Assembly: GCA_903859155.1 (NCBI GenBank)
Contig: CAIOLO010000043.1
Coordinates: 1-64,000, forward strand
DNA: 64,000 nucleotides
Reading direction: 5' to 3'
Origin: an uncultured beta proteobacterium
Lineage (GTDB): Bacteria; Pseudomonadota; Gammaproteobacteria; Burkholderiales; SG8-39
Part shown: one piece after another, positions 1 through 6,305 of the stretch
Numbering within the stretch: position 1 is the first letter of the stretch
Layout of the letters: each line of letters begins with the position of its first letter
The notes under the pieces: generated by a model
Database searches by the model: none
What the model was told of the DNA's origin: nothing
Seen by the model: the letters and a program-made list of their open reading frames with translations, nothing else
Made by a program: the position numbers and the translations under genes

Positions 1-11
1 AATATAGAGCA

Positions 12-36
12 GGCGGGCTTTGTTTTGGACCCGCCC
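12..36 (-). terminator. Possible terminator hairpin at window edge
   Basis: GGCGGG at 12-17 can pair with CCCGCC at 30-35 across a 12-base loop. It lies just beyond the stop of the minus-strand ARPP-1-like fragment, so it could end that transcript. The loop is long and no U-tract follows, so this is weak. Confidence 0.25.
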
Positions 37-89
37 TATTATTCCGATCGGATACGCAATACTCACCCAAATCGCGGGATTGACGCCGC

Positions 90-410
90 TCAGGAGCGCG
101 GCTCGTCTCCGCCCGGCCGCCCACTGCTGCGTCGCCCCGGCCTCCTGCGCAGGTAAGTCGGGTTGTGGTCTTCCATTTTGAAAGCCGCAAGGTGAACAAC
201 GCGATCTTCATGCACCAGTGCACCGCCAGCGATCGCACCACTCTCGATGCGCACGTTTTCGCCCTCGCCGACAGCCTTGAAACTTTCGGTGGCCGCGGCC
301 TTCATTTCCTCGATGAACAGCCGCACCGCCTCCTCCACCGGAAGCACGGTTTTCGGCCTGGCGGTTTCAGCGGCATCCATGGCATAGCTGCGGACAAGCT
401 TGGGCAGATA
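90..410 (-). pseudogene. 5'-truncated ARPP-1-like domain fragment
   Basis: Read on the minus strand, about 105 codons from roughly 410 down to the stop at 90-92 look like the C-terminal part of the ARPP-1 (DUF6569-type) domain. The recognisable blocks are LPKLVRSYAMDA, then a helical stretch, then AVGEGENVRIES, then GALVHEDRVVHLAAF. The last about 25 residues are a basic, low-complexity tail. The family's role is not well established; it has been discussed with stress and conflict genes. Upstream of about 410 the frame stays open but is only the antisense of a Clp ATPase, so the 5' part of the gene is missing. The family call is from memory of the pattern and is moderate. Confidence 0.5.
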
Positions 411-1028
411 AAGAAGCGGCCGTTTTCTGTGTTGCTGTTTGATGAGATCGAGAAGGCCCATGTACGCATTCTGGATAAGTTCTTGCAGATACTTGAAGAT
501 GGGCGTTTGACCGATGGAAAAGGTGAGACGGTCTATTTTTCGGAGACCGTAATAATCTTTACGTCGAACATTGGCGCATCTGAAGTGGAGTTGCAGGAGG
601 ACGCTGTTGCCGTCAAGAAGCAGTTTATGGAAAAGGTGCGCGAGCACTTTGTTGTCGTGGCAAAGCGTCCGGAGTTGCTGAACCGAATTGGAGACAATAT
701 TGTCCCGTTTAACTTCATCACGGGTGACGATTTCCTTGTCGCTATCGCTCGTGCAAAACTTCAGCCCTTACGTGAACGACTAAAGGAAAAATATCGCATA
801 ACTGACATCGTATTTGATGACGAGGAGAAGGCGTTGAAGGCGCTTGCCGCGACTGTTGATCGGTATATGGGAGGACGTGGCGTGCTCAATGAAATAGTTA
901 AGAGGATCATTGATCCGCTTGCTGAGTTTCTTTTTGAGGAAGAAGAAGATACTTCCCTTTATGCCGGCCGGGCTGTGTTGGTGCATCAAGCTGCAGATCA
1001 TCCAACCTTCGTGTTCGAGATGAAGTGA
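405..1028 (+). pseudogene. 5'-truncated Clp-type AAA+ ATPase (C-terminal half of second AAA domain)
   Basis: From about base 405 the plus strand encodes the C-terminal half of a ClpA/ClpB-type AAA+ module. Visible are Walker B (VLLFDEIEKAH), a sensor-1 region (FTSNIGAS), the RPELLNRI arginine-finger block, and a C-terminal small domain with GGRGVLNEIV at the sensor-2 position. Walker A and everything upstream are absent. The frame can be followed back to an ATG at 165, but residues 1-80 of that reading are antisense to the ARPP-1-like fragment. The stop overlaps the next gene by four bases (GTGA), so the two were an operon. Base composition is visibly less GC-rich than the chromosome to the right. 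It is either a broken gene or one side of an assembly join. Confidence 0.7.
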
Positions 1029-1627
1029 GCATGGGGCACTTGAATCTGGCGGATTGGGTAGATTGCACAGAAGTCGAGGGACCCGGTAAACGATTCGCGC
1101 TTTGGGTCCAGGGATGCACACTGCGTTGCCCCGGTTGTTGCAATCCTCACTTTTTTGAACTGACCGCAAAGCATATTGTTGCGACCGATGACATCCTTGC
1201 ATGGATACAACGCTCAGAGGCCCAGCACAAGATTGAAGGGGTAACAATACTTGGCGGAGAGCCGATGCTTCAAGCGCGCGGTTTGGCGGAAATCGCATCG
1301 GGATGTCAGAAACTCGGGCTTTCAGTAATGGTGTTTTCAGGATATATGATCGAATATCTCAACAAGGGCCCGATGTTTGGTATTCGGGAATTGCTGCAAG
1401 CTACCGACATACTCGTGGATGGACCATTTATAGCTGCACAATTGGAGTCGCGTCGAAATTGGGCAGGTTCAGCAAATCAACGATTTCATTTTCTGACGAA
1501 ACGCTACGCACCGGGAATAGAATGGGATTCGGCGTATGCTCCTGCGGTTGAGTTGCGAGTTTATGGTGATGGCACCGTACGGATGAATGGTTGGCCAGTA
1601 GGTCTTGGCGAGCAATTGAATAAATAG
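1025..1627 (+). CDS. Radical SAM / 4Fe-4S single-cluster activase-like protein
   Basis: About 200 residues resembling the small radical-SAM activases (NrdG/PflA-like, 4Fe-4S single-cluster domain). The CxxxCxxC motif is at residues 31-38 (C31, C35, C38), following a VQGC block. ILGGEPM around residue 82 matches the GGEP motif that contacts S-adenosylmethionine. Family members generate a 5'-deoxyadenosyl radical, often on a partner protein. Translation probably starts at GTG 1025, overlapping the Clp stop, or at ATG 1031. Coupling to a Clp-type ATPase suggests a dedicated multi-gene system whose other members lie outside the window or are lost. The substrate cannot be inferred. Composition is AT-richer than the core chromosome, consistent with an acquired island. 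Confidence 0.8.
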   Translation: MSMGHLNLADWVDCTEVEGPGKRFALWVQGCTLRCPGCCNPHFFELTAKHIVATDDILAWIQRSEAQHKIEGVTILGGEPMLQARGLAEIASGCQKLGLSVMVFSGYMIEYLNKGPMFGIRELLQATDILVDGPFIAAQLESRRNWAGSANQRFHFLTKRYAPGIEWDSAYAPAVELRVYGDGTVRMNGWPVGLGEQLNK

Positions 1628-1754
1628 CCGGCTACTTCGATTCGGAAGCTTTAGCCCCGCGAACGACCGACAGGCCTGCTTCTCCGCTGCCGCACATCGG
1701 GTTTCGCCATCTTTGTCATTGAACCTGTAACGCCCAACACCAAGCAGCACCATG

Positions 1755-1760
1755 TATAAT
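1755..1760 (+). promoter_or_regulatory. Consensus -10 box upstream of tRNA cluster
   Basis: A perfect TATAAT lies at 1755-1760, with expected transcription start near 1767. No good -35 is seen at 16-18 bases upstream. It could drive the tRNA-Gly remnant, tRNA-Cys and tRNA-Leu, which would matter if an island has cut them off from their native promoter. Confidence 0.4.
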
Positions 1761-1793
1761 TACGGTGTCGTTAGTGGTAGCGCAGCGGAGAAA

Positions 1794-1843
1794 TGGCCTT
1801 GCCAAGGTTGAGGTCGGGAGTTCGAGACTCCTTTCCCGCTCCA
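1794..1843 (+). pseudogene. tRNA-Gly(GCC) 3' remnant, candidate attachment site
   Basis: The anticodon arm with GCC at 1801-1803, the T arm (GGGAG, TTCGAGA, CTCCT) and the 3' acceptor strand TTCCCGC plus TCCA match tRNA-Gly(GCC). The 5' side does not. A D-loop-like TTAGTGGTAG occurs at 1771-1780, but it is about nine bases too far from the anticodon. No GCGGGAA stands at the position needed to pair with the acceptor strand. A displaced 3' tRNA half is the usual mark left at the far end of an element inserted into a tRNA gene. Its place before tRNA-Cys and tRNA-Leu matches the conserved Gly-Cys-Leu tRNA order. Confidence 0.6.
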
Positions 1844-1947
1844 GAATTTCCCGGGAAAGGCCGTGCAATTTGTTCCAATCCGCTCCTTGAAAGATCGAAA
1901 GGGTCTTTACGAAGCGGGCAGGGCGGCCTTTCTTGTCGAGTCCAAGC

Positions 1948-2021
1948 GGCGCGGTAGCAAAGCGGTTATGCAGAGGACTGCAAATCCTCGGAGGGCGGTT
2001 CGACTCCGCCCCGCGCCTCCA
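1948..2021 (+). tRNA. tRNA-Cys (GCA)
   Basis: A 74-base cloverleaf with acceptor GGCGCGG pairing CCGCGCC and encoded CCA. The anticodon GCA is at 1980-1982 in a GAGGA/TCCTC stem, and the T loop is TTCGACT. It is the second member of the Gly-Cys-Leu tRNA cluster. Confidence 0.96.
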
Positions 2022-2075: not shown

Positions 2076-2165
2076 GCCCGGGTGGTGAAACTGGTAGACA
2101 CAAGGGACTTAAAATCCCTCGGCCCTTATCCGGCCATGCCGGTTCGATTCCGGCCCCGGGCACCA
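2076..2165 (+). tRNA. tRNA-Leu (TAA)
   Basis: A 90-base class II tRNA with acceptor GCCCGGG pairing CCCGGGC and encoded ACCA. The anticodon loop CTTAAAA places TAA at 2110-2112. There is a long variable arm and a T loop of TTCGATT. It is the third member of the cluster, 54 bases after tRNA-Cys. Confidence 0.96.
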
Positions 2166-2783: not shown

Positions 2784-5700
2784 TCAGACCAGGGTGCGCT
2801 GTTTCTTCAATTCAGGCATGCAATGTTGCAGCCATTGAACGGTCAGTTTCTCCTGAAGCGAGTTCTGCCGGAGTCGTTCCGAGAGTGCCTGAAAATCAAC
2901 CAGGTCCAGTGATTGATCCTGGTTGAAACAGGAAAATACGTGGTGCGTCTCGCCGGTAAGCGGGTCGAGATGCACTTGCAGGCACTGGGCGCAGATCTCC
3001 TTCATCATGCATTGCATGGGCGAATTGATGGAGCCGATTCCCGTGTGGCCTTTCTTCAGGTAAGGGGCCAGCACATCGTGGCGCGCACGGGTGACGGCGG
3101 CCATCATTCGGTCCGATCCGATGGCGACTATGCGGGTGGCCTGGGACATGGGCAGCACGACCTCGCCCAGCCGGCCCGATGCATAGGCCTCCATGGCCTG
3201 AACGATATTGCCGACAAAGGTGCCATCCTGGGGGCGGTCAGGCTGGAATCCGGGCTCTTCGTCGCAGCACCAGACAATGACATCGGCGGCTGCTTCAATT
3301 TCCTCGACTTTGTAGCGGTCCTGCGTCTTTTTGTAGCCGGCAAAATAGAGGACCTTGGATCCTGCTGCCCGAAATGCCTGTCCGATGGAAAAGAGGACGG
3401 CGTTACCCAGCCCGCCGCCAACCAGAATGACCGTCTCACCGGAGAAAATTTCCGTAGGGGCGCCGGTGGGGCCCATCAGGATCACCGGTTCGCCGGGCCG
3501 CAGCATCGCGCAAAGATTCGACGACCCGCCCATTTCCAGTACTATCGTTGAAACCAGACCGCGTGCCTCGTCGACCCAGGCCCCGGTCAGGGCCAGACCT
3601 TCCATCTGCAGGCGCGTGCCGTTGACCACCGGGGAAAGGCTTTCAAAGTTCTGCAGACGGTAAAATTGTCCAGGCTTGAAATTGCGTGCCGCCTGCGGCG
3701 CATGGACAACCACCTCAATTATTGTCGGGGTCAGCCGCTTGATCTCGTGTATGTGCGCCCTGAGTCGCTGATTCATGGCCCCCAGAAATGCCTGGTTGCC
3801 GGTGCGCTCACCCGGGTGAAGTTTGGAGAGGACACGCGTCACCAGCGGGTGGCCCTGTTTCGTGGAGCCCAGGGCTTTGACGACATTGCCGAAATAGGAC
3901 GGGTGAAGGTCGCCGAAATAAGACACGAATCGGCCCTCGGGGCCGCGTGACAGCAGCACTTCGGGTTTCGCGGGCTTTGAAATCGAGAATTGCGGTTTGA
4001 CCGGTTTGCCGTCCTCGTCGCAGGCGCCGAAGTATTTGCCATCGACGCTGAAATGGCGCTCATCTTCCCGCGCAAGCACGGTGTTGGGTTGCGTGCCGGC
4101 CGCAACAAAAATGGTGTGAGCGGGCATCCGGTAGTCGCCGTCCGGTTGTGCCTTGCCGTCCTCGACGAATTTCTGGCGAGTGAAATGAATGGCCCTGGCG
4201 GCGCCGTACTCGTCGGTCTCGATCGACAAGGGGGAGAGGCATTCGATGAAAGTAATGCCTTCTTCGAGCGCCTTCTCCACCTCTTCGTGATTTAGCGTGT
4301 AGGCCGGACTGTCAATCAGCCGGCGTCGATAGGCAACGCTCACGCCTCCCCAGGCCTGCAGCAGTTCGATGACACGGGCCTCGCGTTTTTCCCGCTCCGC
4401 GCGCTGGCGTTCGTCGCGGATTGCCCTGGCATGGGAGAGGAACTCCTCGGCTATCTCGCGTTCCTCAGGATTCCAGCGGTCGCGGATGGCGTCTTCACCG
4501 ATGGCATGTGCCAGCGTTTCGAAGCGCTCGAGGAATTTCCCCACCTGCACTACGTAGTAGGCCAGGGACTCGGTGGCGGTGTCGATTGCAGTCAGTCCGC
4601 CGCCAATGACGACCGCGGGCAGTCGCATCTGCATGTTCGCGATGGAATCGAATTTGGCGGCGCCGGTCAGTTGCAGGGCCATCAGGAAGTCGGACGCGGT
4701 CCTGACCCCGCGCGCCAGGCCATTGGGAATTTCCAGGGTGGTCGGCCGCCCCGCGCCCATGGCCAGCGCCACGTGGTCGAAACCCATGGACCAGGCGTCC
4801 TCCAATGTGACCGTGCCGCCAAAGCGCACGCCTCCGATCATGGCGAATTGCGCGCGCCGTTCCAGCAGCAGCCGGATAATTTTCAGGAAATTCTTGTCCC
4901 AGCGCACCGTGATGCCGTATTCAGCCACCCCGCCAAATCCCGCCATCACCCGGCTGTTCAGGGATTCAGACAGGCTGGTGACATCTTGAATCGGCTCAAA
5001 TGGAATACGCGAGCCATCGGCGCGCACGCCGGATATTGCCTCCGGCAGCGGCTCTATCTTGAGGCCGTCGATGCCCACCACGGTGTGGCCGTCGTTCATC
5101 AGATAGTGCGCGAGGCTGTAACCCGCGGGTCCCATTCCAGCCACCAGGACGCGGTATCCCGAACTCGGTCGCGGCAGCGGTTGGCGGAGATTGAGCGGAT
5201 TCCAGCGGGTGAGGAGCGAATAGATTTCGAATCCCCAGGGAAGTTCGAGAACGTCTTTCAGGGTGCGGGTTTCGGCCTGGGGAATATCGACCGGTTCCTG
5301 CTTCTGGTAGATGCAGGCCTTCATGCAGTCGTTGCAGATCCGATGACCCGTCGCCGCCGCCATGGGATTGTCGATGGTGATGATGGCCAATGCGGATAGT
5401 GCGAGTCCTTGCGATTTTGCAAGGTGAAACTCGGAGATCTTTTCCTCCAGCGGACACCCGGCAAGCGCTACGCCGAAGGTGCCTTTCTTGAACGTGATTG
5501 CCTTTGGTGCATCGGCAGAAGGCTTTTCCCGCAAACCGCGTGAACAGGAGTCCTTGCCCTGGTTATGGCACCAGATGCAGTAATTGGCCTGATCGAGTGC
5601 GCCGGCAAGGTCGGTACCCTGGTCGGTCAGGTGAAAGGCATCACGGCGCCTGATGTGGTCGGGCGAGATGTTGAATGCCGTCACGCCATCGGCATCGGTC

Positions 5701-6305
5701 TGCCTGGCGTGCGACAGCATCCGGTACGGATCAATCTTGGCGACTTGCTTGAACAGCAGGCCAGCGCGATGCCGTTCCCGGCCAGCCGGGGTATGAAGCG
5801 CCCAGGCCGCGTAGCGAAGCGCCTTGTCCAGCGCCTCCGCGTGCGCGGTTTCGTCCGTACTCCAGTTCTCCACATGGTTCGCGAACGACAACTCGTCAAA
5901 GCGGCCATTGAACCGTGCGGCGAACTCGCGCTCCAACGCCGGACCGTCAATGCCGAGTGCCTCTTGCGGCTTGATTTTCGTCGCGGCGCGGCGTTGCACG
6001 AACTGGCGCTTGACCCGATACAAGGCGTCCAGCGCTTCATGCCGGCCGGCCAGTGCCAGGACCTCGTCGGCGATGCCGAAGAGCTGGGAAAGGAAGCGCT
6101 CCAGATGCGGGCAGATCTCGAGAATCAGAGCTGATTCCGTCTTGGCATCCAGGGTCTGGGTAGCGGTGCGCGCGGCTTCGAGGCGGCCGGCGAGGGCGGC
6201 ATCGGCCGTTCCCATGAAAGCAAGAAATGCCGCGTCGACTCGCAACAGGCCGTCGCGATCGTACAACTCAGGAAACGACAGCCCGAAGGAAAGCTTTAAC
6301 ATCAA
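2784..6305 (-). CDS. Large multidomain FAD/NAD(P)/Fe-S oxidoreductase
   Basis: A protein of 1173 residues built from three parts. The N-terminal 350 residues carry cysteine motifs (CIWCHNQ with DSC near residue 240; CNDCMKAC near 325) that could hold an Fe-S cluster. The middle (about 390-830) is a GltD-like flavoprotein with two Rossmann motifs (VAGMGPAGYS and VIGGGLTAIDTA). The C-terminal 330 residues look like a ferredoxin-NADP reductase / PyrK module: FKPGQFYRL for flavin, GGGLGNA for nucleotide, and a CAQC-containing cluster with a later C. Together these resemble an NfnAB- or PyrK-GltD-type electron-transfer unit in one chain. It is divergent from none and sits 41 bases downstream of fdxA on the same strand. 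I infer that it exchanges electrons between NAD(P)H and that ferredoxin; the acceptor is unknown. Confidence 0.75.
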   Translation of the reverse strand: MMLKLSFGLSFPELYDRDGLLRVDAAFLAFMGTADAALAGRLEAARTATQTLDAKTESALILEICPHLERFLSQLFGIADEVLALAGRHEALDALYRVKRQFVQRRAATKIKPQEALGIDGPALEREFAARFNGRFDELSFANHVENWSTDETAHAEALDKALRYAAWALHTPAGRERHRAGLLFKQVAKIDPYRMLSHARQTDADGVTAFNISPDHIRRRDAFHLTDQGTDLAGALDQANYCIWCHNQGKDSCSRGLREKPSADAPKAITFKKGTFGVALAGCPLEEKISEFHLAKSQGLALSALAIITIDNPMAAATGHRICNDCMKACIYQKQEPVDIPQAETRTLKDVLELPWGFEIYSLLTRWNPLNLRQPLPRPSSGYRVLVAGMGPAGYSLAHYLMNDGHTVVGIDGLKIEPLPEAISGVRADGSRIPFEPIQDVTSLSESLNSRVMAGFGGVAEYGITVRWDKNFLKIIRLLLERRAQFAMIGGVRFGGTVTLEDAWSMGFDHVALAMGAGRPTTLEIPNGLARGVRTASDFLMALQLTGAAKFDSIANMQMRLPAVVIGGGLTAIDTATESLAYYVVQVGKFLERFETLAHAIGEDAIRDRWNPEEREIAEEFLSHARAIRDERQRAEREKREARVIELLQAWGGVSVAYRRRLIDSPAYTLNHEEVEKALEEGITFIECLSPLSIETDEYGAARAIHFTRQKFVEDGKAQPDGDYRMPAHTIFVAAGTQPNTVLAREDERHFSVDGKYFGACDEDGKPVKPQFSISKPAKPEVLLSRGPEGRFVSYFGDLHPSYFGNVVKALGSTKQGHPLVTRVLSKLHPGERTGNQAFLGAMNQRLRAHIHEIKRLTPTIIEVVVHAPQAARNFKPGQFYRLQNFESLSPVVNGTRLQMEGLALTGAWVDEARGLVSTIVLEMGGSSNLCAMLRPGEPVILMGPTGAPTEIFSGETVILVGGGLGNAVLFSIGQAFRAAGSKVLYFAGYKKTQDRYKVEEIEAAADVIVWCCDEEPGFQPDRPQDGTFVGNIVQAMEAYASGRLGEVVLPMSQATRIVAIGSDRMMAAVTRARHDVLAPYLKKGHTGIGSINSPMQCMMKEICAQCLQVHLDPLTGETHHVFSCFNQDQSLDLVDFQALSERLRQNSLQEKLTVQWLQHCMPELKKQRTLV

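Follow-up and report, generated by a model that had tools for sequence, protein, structure and literature searches.

What leaves only the 3′ part of a tRNA-Gly(GCC) gene standing beside an intact tRNA-Cys and tRNA-Leu? The question arises at the left end of the window, the whole 64,000-nucleotide stretch analysed, which begins where contig C43 begins and covers its first 64 kb. ARAGORN called tRNA-Cys and tRNA-Leu(TAA) as the only tRNA genes in the window, and no tRNA-Gly. An earlier note had read this place as the end of a genomic island inserted in the tRNA-Gly of a Gly-Cys-Leu cluster, and had put the tRNA-Gly fragment at 1794–1843. The fragment is present, but its bounds are 1797–1843: these are the last 47 nt of tRNA-Gly(GCC), and identity to an intact copy elsewhere in the assembly continues for five more bases (GAATT), making a perfect repeat to 1848. 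The note's remark that the 5′ half cannot be folded was borne out, as the 76 nt ending at 1843 (1768–1843) form no cloverleaf (z −0.67), whereas the intact tRNA-Gly does fold (z −2.27); there is no functional tRNA-Gly at this site. The features of this end of the window are as follows.

158–410, minus strand: gene fragment encoding only the C-terminal part of an ARPP-1 domain (PF20208 positions 218–297 of 297, E 2.9e-14)
411–1028, plus strand: AAA+ ATPase gene of ClpB type, truncated (PF07724 match starting at profile position 65 of 166; PF10431)
1025–1627, plus strand: gene for an NrdG-like radical-SAM/4Fe-4S activase-type protein of 200 aa (PF13353, E 2e-31; PF04055)
1628–1796, plus strand: non-coding island arm beside the attachment core, unlike the region upstream of tRNA-Gly in relatives
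1755–1760, plus strand: exact TATAAT hexamer with no −35 partner
1797–1843, plus strand: the displaced 47-nt 3′ piece of tRNA-Gly(GCC), which runs from the anticodon stem through CCA
1797–1848, plus strand: attachment core (attR), 52 bp, an exact repeat of C83:65385-65436
1849–1947, plus strand: host Gly-Cys spacer, homologous to that of the relatives G001 and G002 in the alignment of the reconstructed empty site
1948–2021, plus strand: intact tRNA-Cys(GCA) (ARAGORN), the sole copy found in the assembly
2076–2165, plus strand: intact tRNA-Leu(UAA) (ARAGORN), the sole UAA copy found in the assembly

Beyond the tRNAs, a minus-strand gene at 2784–6305 (1173 aa) resembles the bifunctional glutamate synthase beta subunit/FAD-NAD-binding oxidoreductase family (NF005128, below cut-off).

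If the fragment marks one end of an element, an intact tRNA-Gly with the same last bases and an integrase gene would be expected at the other, as the note had proposed; both were found on contig C83 of the same genome. The second copy of the repeat (C83:65385-65436) is the 3′ part of an intact tRNA-Gly at 65356–65431, which shares the last 47 bases and stands downstream of uvrC-pgsA (names assigned by position and E. coli counterpart). A tyrosine-integrase gene (C83:65536-66414, 292 aa) follows 104 bp after the intact tRNA-Gly in the same direction. Its product matches PF00589 (E 8.2e-22) and the phrog_1 integrase family and has the R, HxxR, H and Y motifs, which we take to be the catalytic motifs expected of tyrosine integrases. 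The repeat is 100 % identical over its 52 bp and stops abruptly at either side, and the likelihood of a random 52-bp identity within 5.3 Mb is negligible. It begins within the anticodon stem of tRNA-Gly, which would fit an anticodon-centred crossover site.

The intact gene and the fragment lie on separate contigs, with nothing joining C83 to C43 through the island. C83 ends at 67093, leaving 1657 bp (1.66 kb) of the element visible there; its tail matches no other contig of the assembly, and the start of C43 overlaps none. With 1.8 kb on C43, 1.66 kb on C83 and the middle unassembled, the element must therefore exceed 3.45 kb. Neither transfer genes nor phage genes occur within the visible 1.8 and 1.66 kb, and the two 200-bp arms have no 8-mers in common that could represent arm-type integrase sites.

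The unoccupied state of the locus is preserved in relatives. The tRNA-Gly-Cys-Leu cluster is undivided and without the element in G001 and G002, both of the same genus, and undivided in several other members of the family. When the empty site was rebuilt by placing the repeat between the left flank from C83 and the right flank from C43, it aligned with both of these genomes across the junction (G002, 85 % over 460 bp; G001, 75 % over 616 bp), whereas either occupied end aligns with relatives only as far as the repeat; in the window, the match begins at 1797. The GAATT that follows CCA is shared with G001 and absent from G002. As the core includes this stretch common to G001, the attP of the element probably derives from a close relative of the present host.

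A pattern search of 98 family genomes found a true second, displaced copy in one, the source assembly (G000) itself, so that none of the relatives searched carries the same fragment without an island. A second candidate, G338, was set aside since its two hits come from contig ends that overlap and represent one gene. G020 and G038 were likewise rejected as instances of the same event, Gly and Cys remaining together there; their tRNA-Leu(UAA) lies on the same strand 24 kb (G020:C28) and 47 kb (G038:C1) downstream of tRNA-Gly-Cys, possibly a second way of splitting the cluster. G002 has two tRNA-Leu(UAA) genes in its cluster, approximately 550 bp apart.

The repeat, the intact tRNA-Gly with its integrase on C83 and the empty site in relatives together argue that the window holds the far end of a tRNA-targeted element, in agreement with the earlier note. 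We regard it as close to certain that an integrase-bearing element integrated in the 3′ part of tRNA-Gly(GCC) in a uvrC-pgsA-tRNA-Gly-Cys-Leu locus and that the fragment marks its far end. In the mechanism we propose, the tyrosine integrase of the element would recombine attP with the 3′ part of the tRNA-Gly(GCC) that heads the Gly-Cys-Leu cluster. The attP would hold the last 47 nt of tRNA-Gly plus GAATT, so that integration would rebuild a complete tRNA-Gly at the integrase end (C83) and leave the displaced 3′ piece at the opposite end (window 1797–1843), with tRNA-Cys and tRNA-Leu(UAA) thereby cut off from the promoter of the operon. We infer that the C83 integrase performed this integration and that the two contig ends are parts of a single element.

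An assembler working with short k-mers can be confused by a 52-bp repeat. We considered whether the contigs were mis-joined at the shared sequence, the cluster being in truth undivided and the element circular or located elsewhere. Both C83 and C43 do break off within the presumed element, at distances from the repeat of 1.66 and 1.8 kb respectively, without a link between them, and the contigs of another genome (G338) likewise break at this tRNA. A random mis-join, however, would not bring an integrase gene to lie immediately behind the intact copy and in the canonical orientation, and an attP matching this tRNA would still be required, so that the integration site would be the same and only the integrated or excised state would differ. 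We consider such an artefact very unlikely. The fragment might instead be an old partial duplication or a decayed second tRNA-Gly, with no element involved; in favour of this, the intact copy lies on a different contig and the element's middle is missing from the assembly. We find this reading scarcely credible, since relatives hold one intact gene at the same place, the repeat is perfect over 52 bp with sharp ends and an integrase gene beside the intact copy, and the empty-site alignment contradicts it.

The integrase is uncommon. Its nearest relatives in the 98 family genomes show 31–40 % identity, with none closer than 40 %, and no close relative was found in 350 genomes of the class (at E 1e-40) or in viral contigs. 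Plasmids and phages yielded no matches above 60 % identity; those in phage records were all below this value, and those listed were at 24–31 %. With no close integrase relative in the family, class, viral, plasmid or phage searches, the idea of a relative bearing the same element whole was rejected. Three of the four nearest relatives stand directly downstream of tRNA genes (tRNA-Val, tRNA-Asn and tRNA-Leu(UAA)), the fourth being at a contig start, and this group of integrases therefore seems to favour tRNA genes as targets, which adds to the case for a tRNA-targeted element here. The tRNA-Leu(UAA) case (G023:C195, approximately 1503–2722, 31 % identity) indicates that this tRNA is probably also a target, in G023. 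No att repeats were detected in the stretches searched at the related integrases beside tRNA-Val and tRNA-Leu, including 8 kb at the G023:C195 locus.

The genes at the island end are in part broken. The ARPP-1 fragment shows 75–77 % DNA identity to stretches of two other contigs (C90 and C75), the match ending at 410, and it is inverted relative to the ClpB-type fragment, to which it is joined at about 410/411; this junction reflects either a deletion or rearrangement in the island or an assembly chimera. The ClpB-type fragment corresponds to ClpB model positions 662–835 of 853, and keeps the Walker B part and the C-terminal D2-small domain without the Walker A part. Next to it, the radical-SAM gene is the last gene before the island end and is co-directional with the tRNAs; its product scores below the model cut-off against NrdG (TIGR02491, E 2.1e-25). 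The earlier note had described the DNA left of the fragment as AT-richer. This holds for 421–1627, at 48.9 % GC compared with 61.1±3.0 % for 1.2-kb stretches elsewhere in the window (lowest 52.6 %), but not for 1–410, at 60.7 % GC.

Within the class, homologues of the radical-SAM protein from other families have a recurring neighbourhood: they adjoin AAA+ genes of ClpB, FtsH or another type, accompanied by DO-GTPase2, fvmX6 or Hsp70-like genes. In G061, the relative lies beside ClpB-type AAA+ and DO-GTPase2 genes, and in G310 beside FtsH-type AAA/M41 and fvmX6 genes. The fvmX6 domain belongs to the FtsH ternary systems, which are counted among the NTP-dependent conflict systems and for which a radical-SAM enzyme is likewise listed as an effector (PMC7159879). 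These neighbourhoods suggest that the NrdG-like radical-SAM protein is a recurrent component of conflict systems, and by the same evidence the island end may be the remnant of an NTP-dependent conflict system. What is present here is the truncated ClpB-type fragment and the radical-SAM gene only, rather than a complete AAA+/NTPase module with partner domains.

How, then, are the tRNAs to the right of the element transcribed? Upstream of the tRNA-Gly on C83, there is a promoter (TTGACC-17-TAAGAT), conserved in both G001 and G002, that scores above shuffled sequence, only 3 % of shuffles doing as well. Being on C83, it is separated from tRNA-Cys and tRNA-Leu(UAA) after the insertion. Since these are the only copies found, they must be transcribed; the count rests on 40 tRNA genes examined in an assembly that is 98.7 % complete, so that a missed copy of either is possible. 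The tRNA-Cys (1948–2021) has many differences from the copies in G001 and G002, of the same genus, although the flanking spacer is alike, and its type resembles that of other genera of the family.

The earlier note had pointed to the TATAAT at 1755 as a promoter that could keep the two tRNAs expressed, which would give the island end an outward promoter of its own with this hexamer as its −10 element. The hexamer is there, exact, 37 bp before the repeat and one of five occurrences on this strand in 64 kb, and both tRNAs need transcription from some source. Its role as a promoter is unsupported, however: it has no −35 partner, no promoter-like site was recognised in 1600–2000, and the best score in 1628–1947 (6.3) is no better than that of shuffled DNA (mean 6.7), being equalled by 54 % of shuffles as opposed to 3 % for the native promoter. 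Organisms with other promoter types fall outside the coverage of the promoter and terminator scans used. No terminator-like site was found between the radical-SAM gene, which ends at 1627, and the tRNAs, and this leaves read-through open as the simplest guess. We therefore consider the outward promoter rather unlikely. Judged from the sequence, read-through from the co-directional radical-SAM gene is the likelier of the two and most likely the source of tRNA-Cys and tRNA-Leu transcription; otherwise, the island arm or the spacer might contain a promoter that escaped recognition.

Here an island occupies the gene that heads a conserved tRNA operon, and the repair that saves tRNA-Gly does not save the link of tRNA-Cys and tRNA-Leu(UAA) to their promoter. 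The split operon thus raises a testable question, namely how hosts tolerate such insertions. A literature search for islands splitting tRNA operons, with attention to promoters, returned nothing. We suggest, tentatively and with some doubt, that the island end supplies the transcription, by its own promoter or by read-through, that keeps two essential single-copy tRNAs alive, making the host dependent on it. If this is true, loss or silencing of the island end would be costly, and the host would depend on the element.

The order of the locus, uvrC, pgsA, tRNA-Gly(GCC), tRNA-Cys(GCA) and tRNA-Leu(UAA), is the same as that of E. coli uvrC-pgsA-glyW-cysT-leuZ. In 5362 of 5375 matching complete E. 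coli genomes, however, one pgsA-to-cysT place covers at least 80 % of the query, so that, unlike the present locus, pgsA-glyW-cysT is split at most very rarely; this rarity would fit a cost of splitting, without proving it. In Pseudomonas aeruginosa, pgsA is PA2584. The P. aeruginosa islands RGP27, KK_10 and ST395_6 are inserted at the equivalent tRNA-Gly (PA2583.1), between PA2583 and PA2584; they measure 80–106 kb, whereas the present element is known from its two ends only (PMC4243448).

In the ICEclc/ICEPni1 family, too, the integrase gene adjoins a GCC tRNA-Gly and points the same way, and the 3′ end of that tRNA gene recurs at the far end, but the core there is 18 bp (PMC7466150), compared with 52 bp here, and the visible ends of the present element hold no conjugation genes. 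More generally, in tRNA-targeted integration the island sequence restores the target gene, and an island is delimited by this restored gene on one side and by the displaced fragment on the other; attachment sites centred on the anticodon are common in the Islander set of 2083 islands (PMC4383910). The present element resembles these islands in its regenerated tRNA gene, displaced 3′ fragment and tyrosine integrase near one end, and differs from them in that its ends are on separate contigs and its target gene heads a tRNA operon. The event is of a well-known kind, and the split tRNA operon is its only less ordinary aspect.
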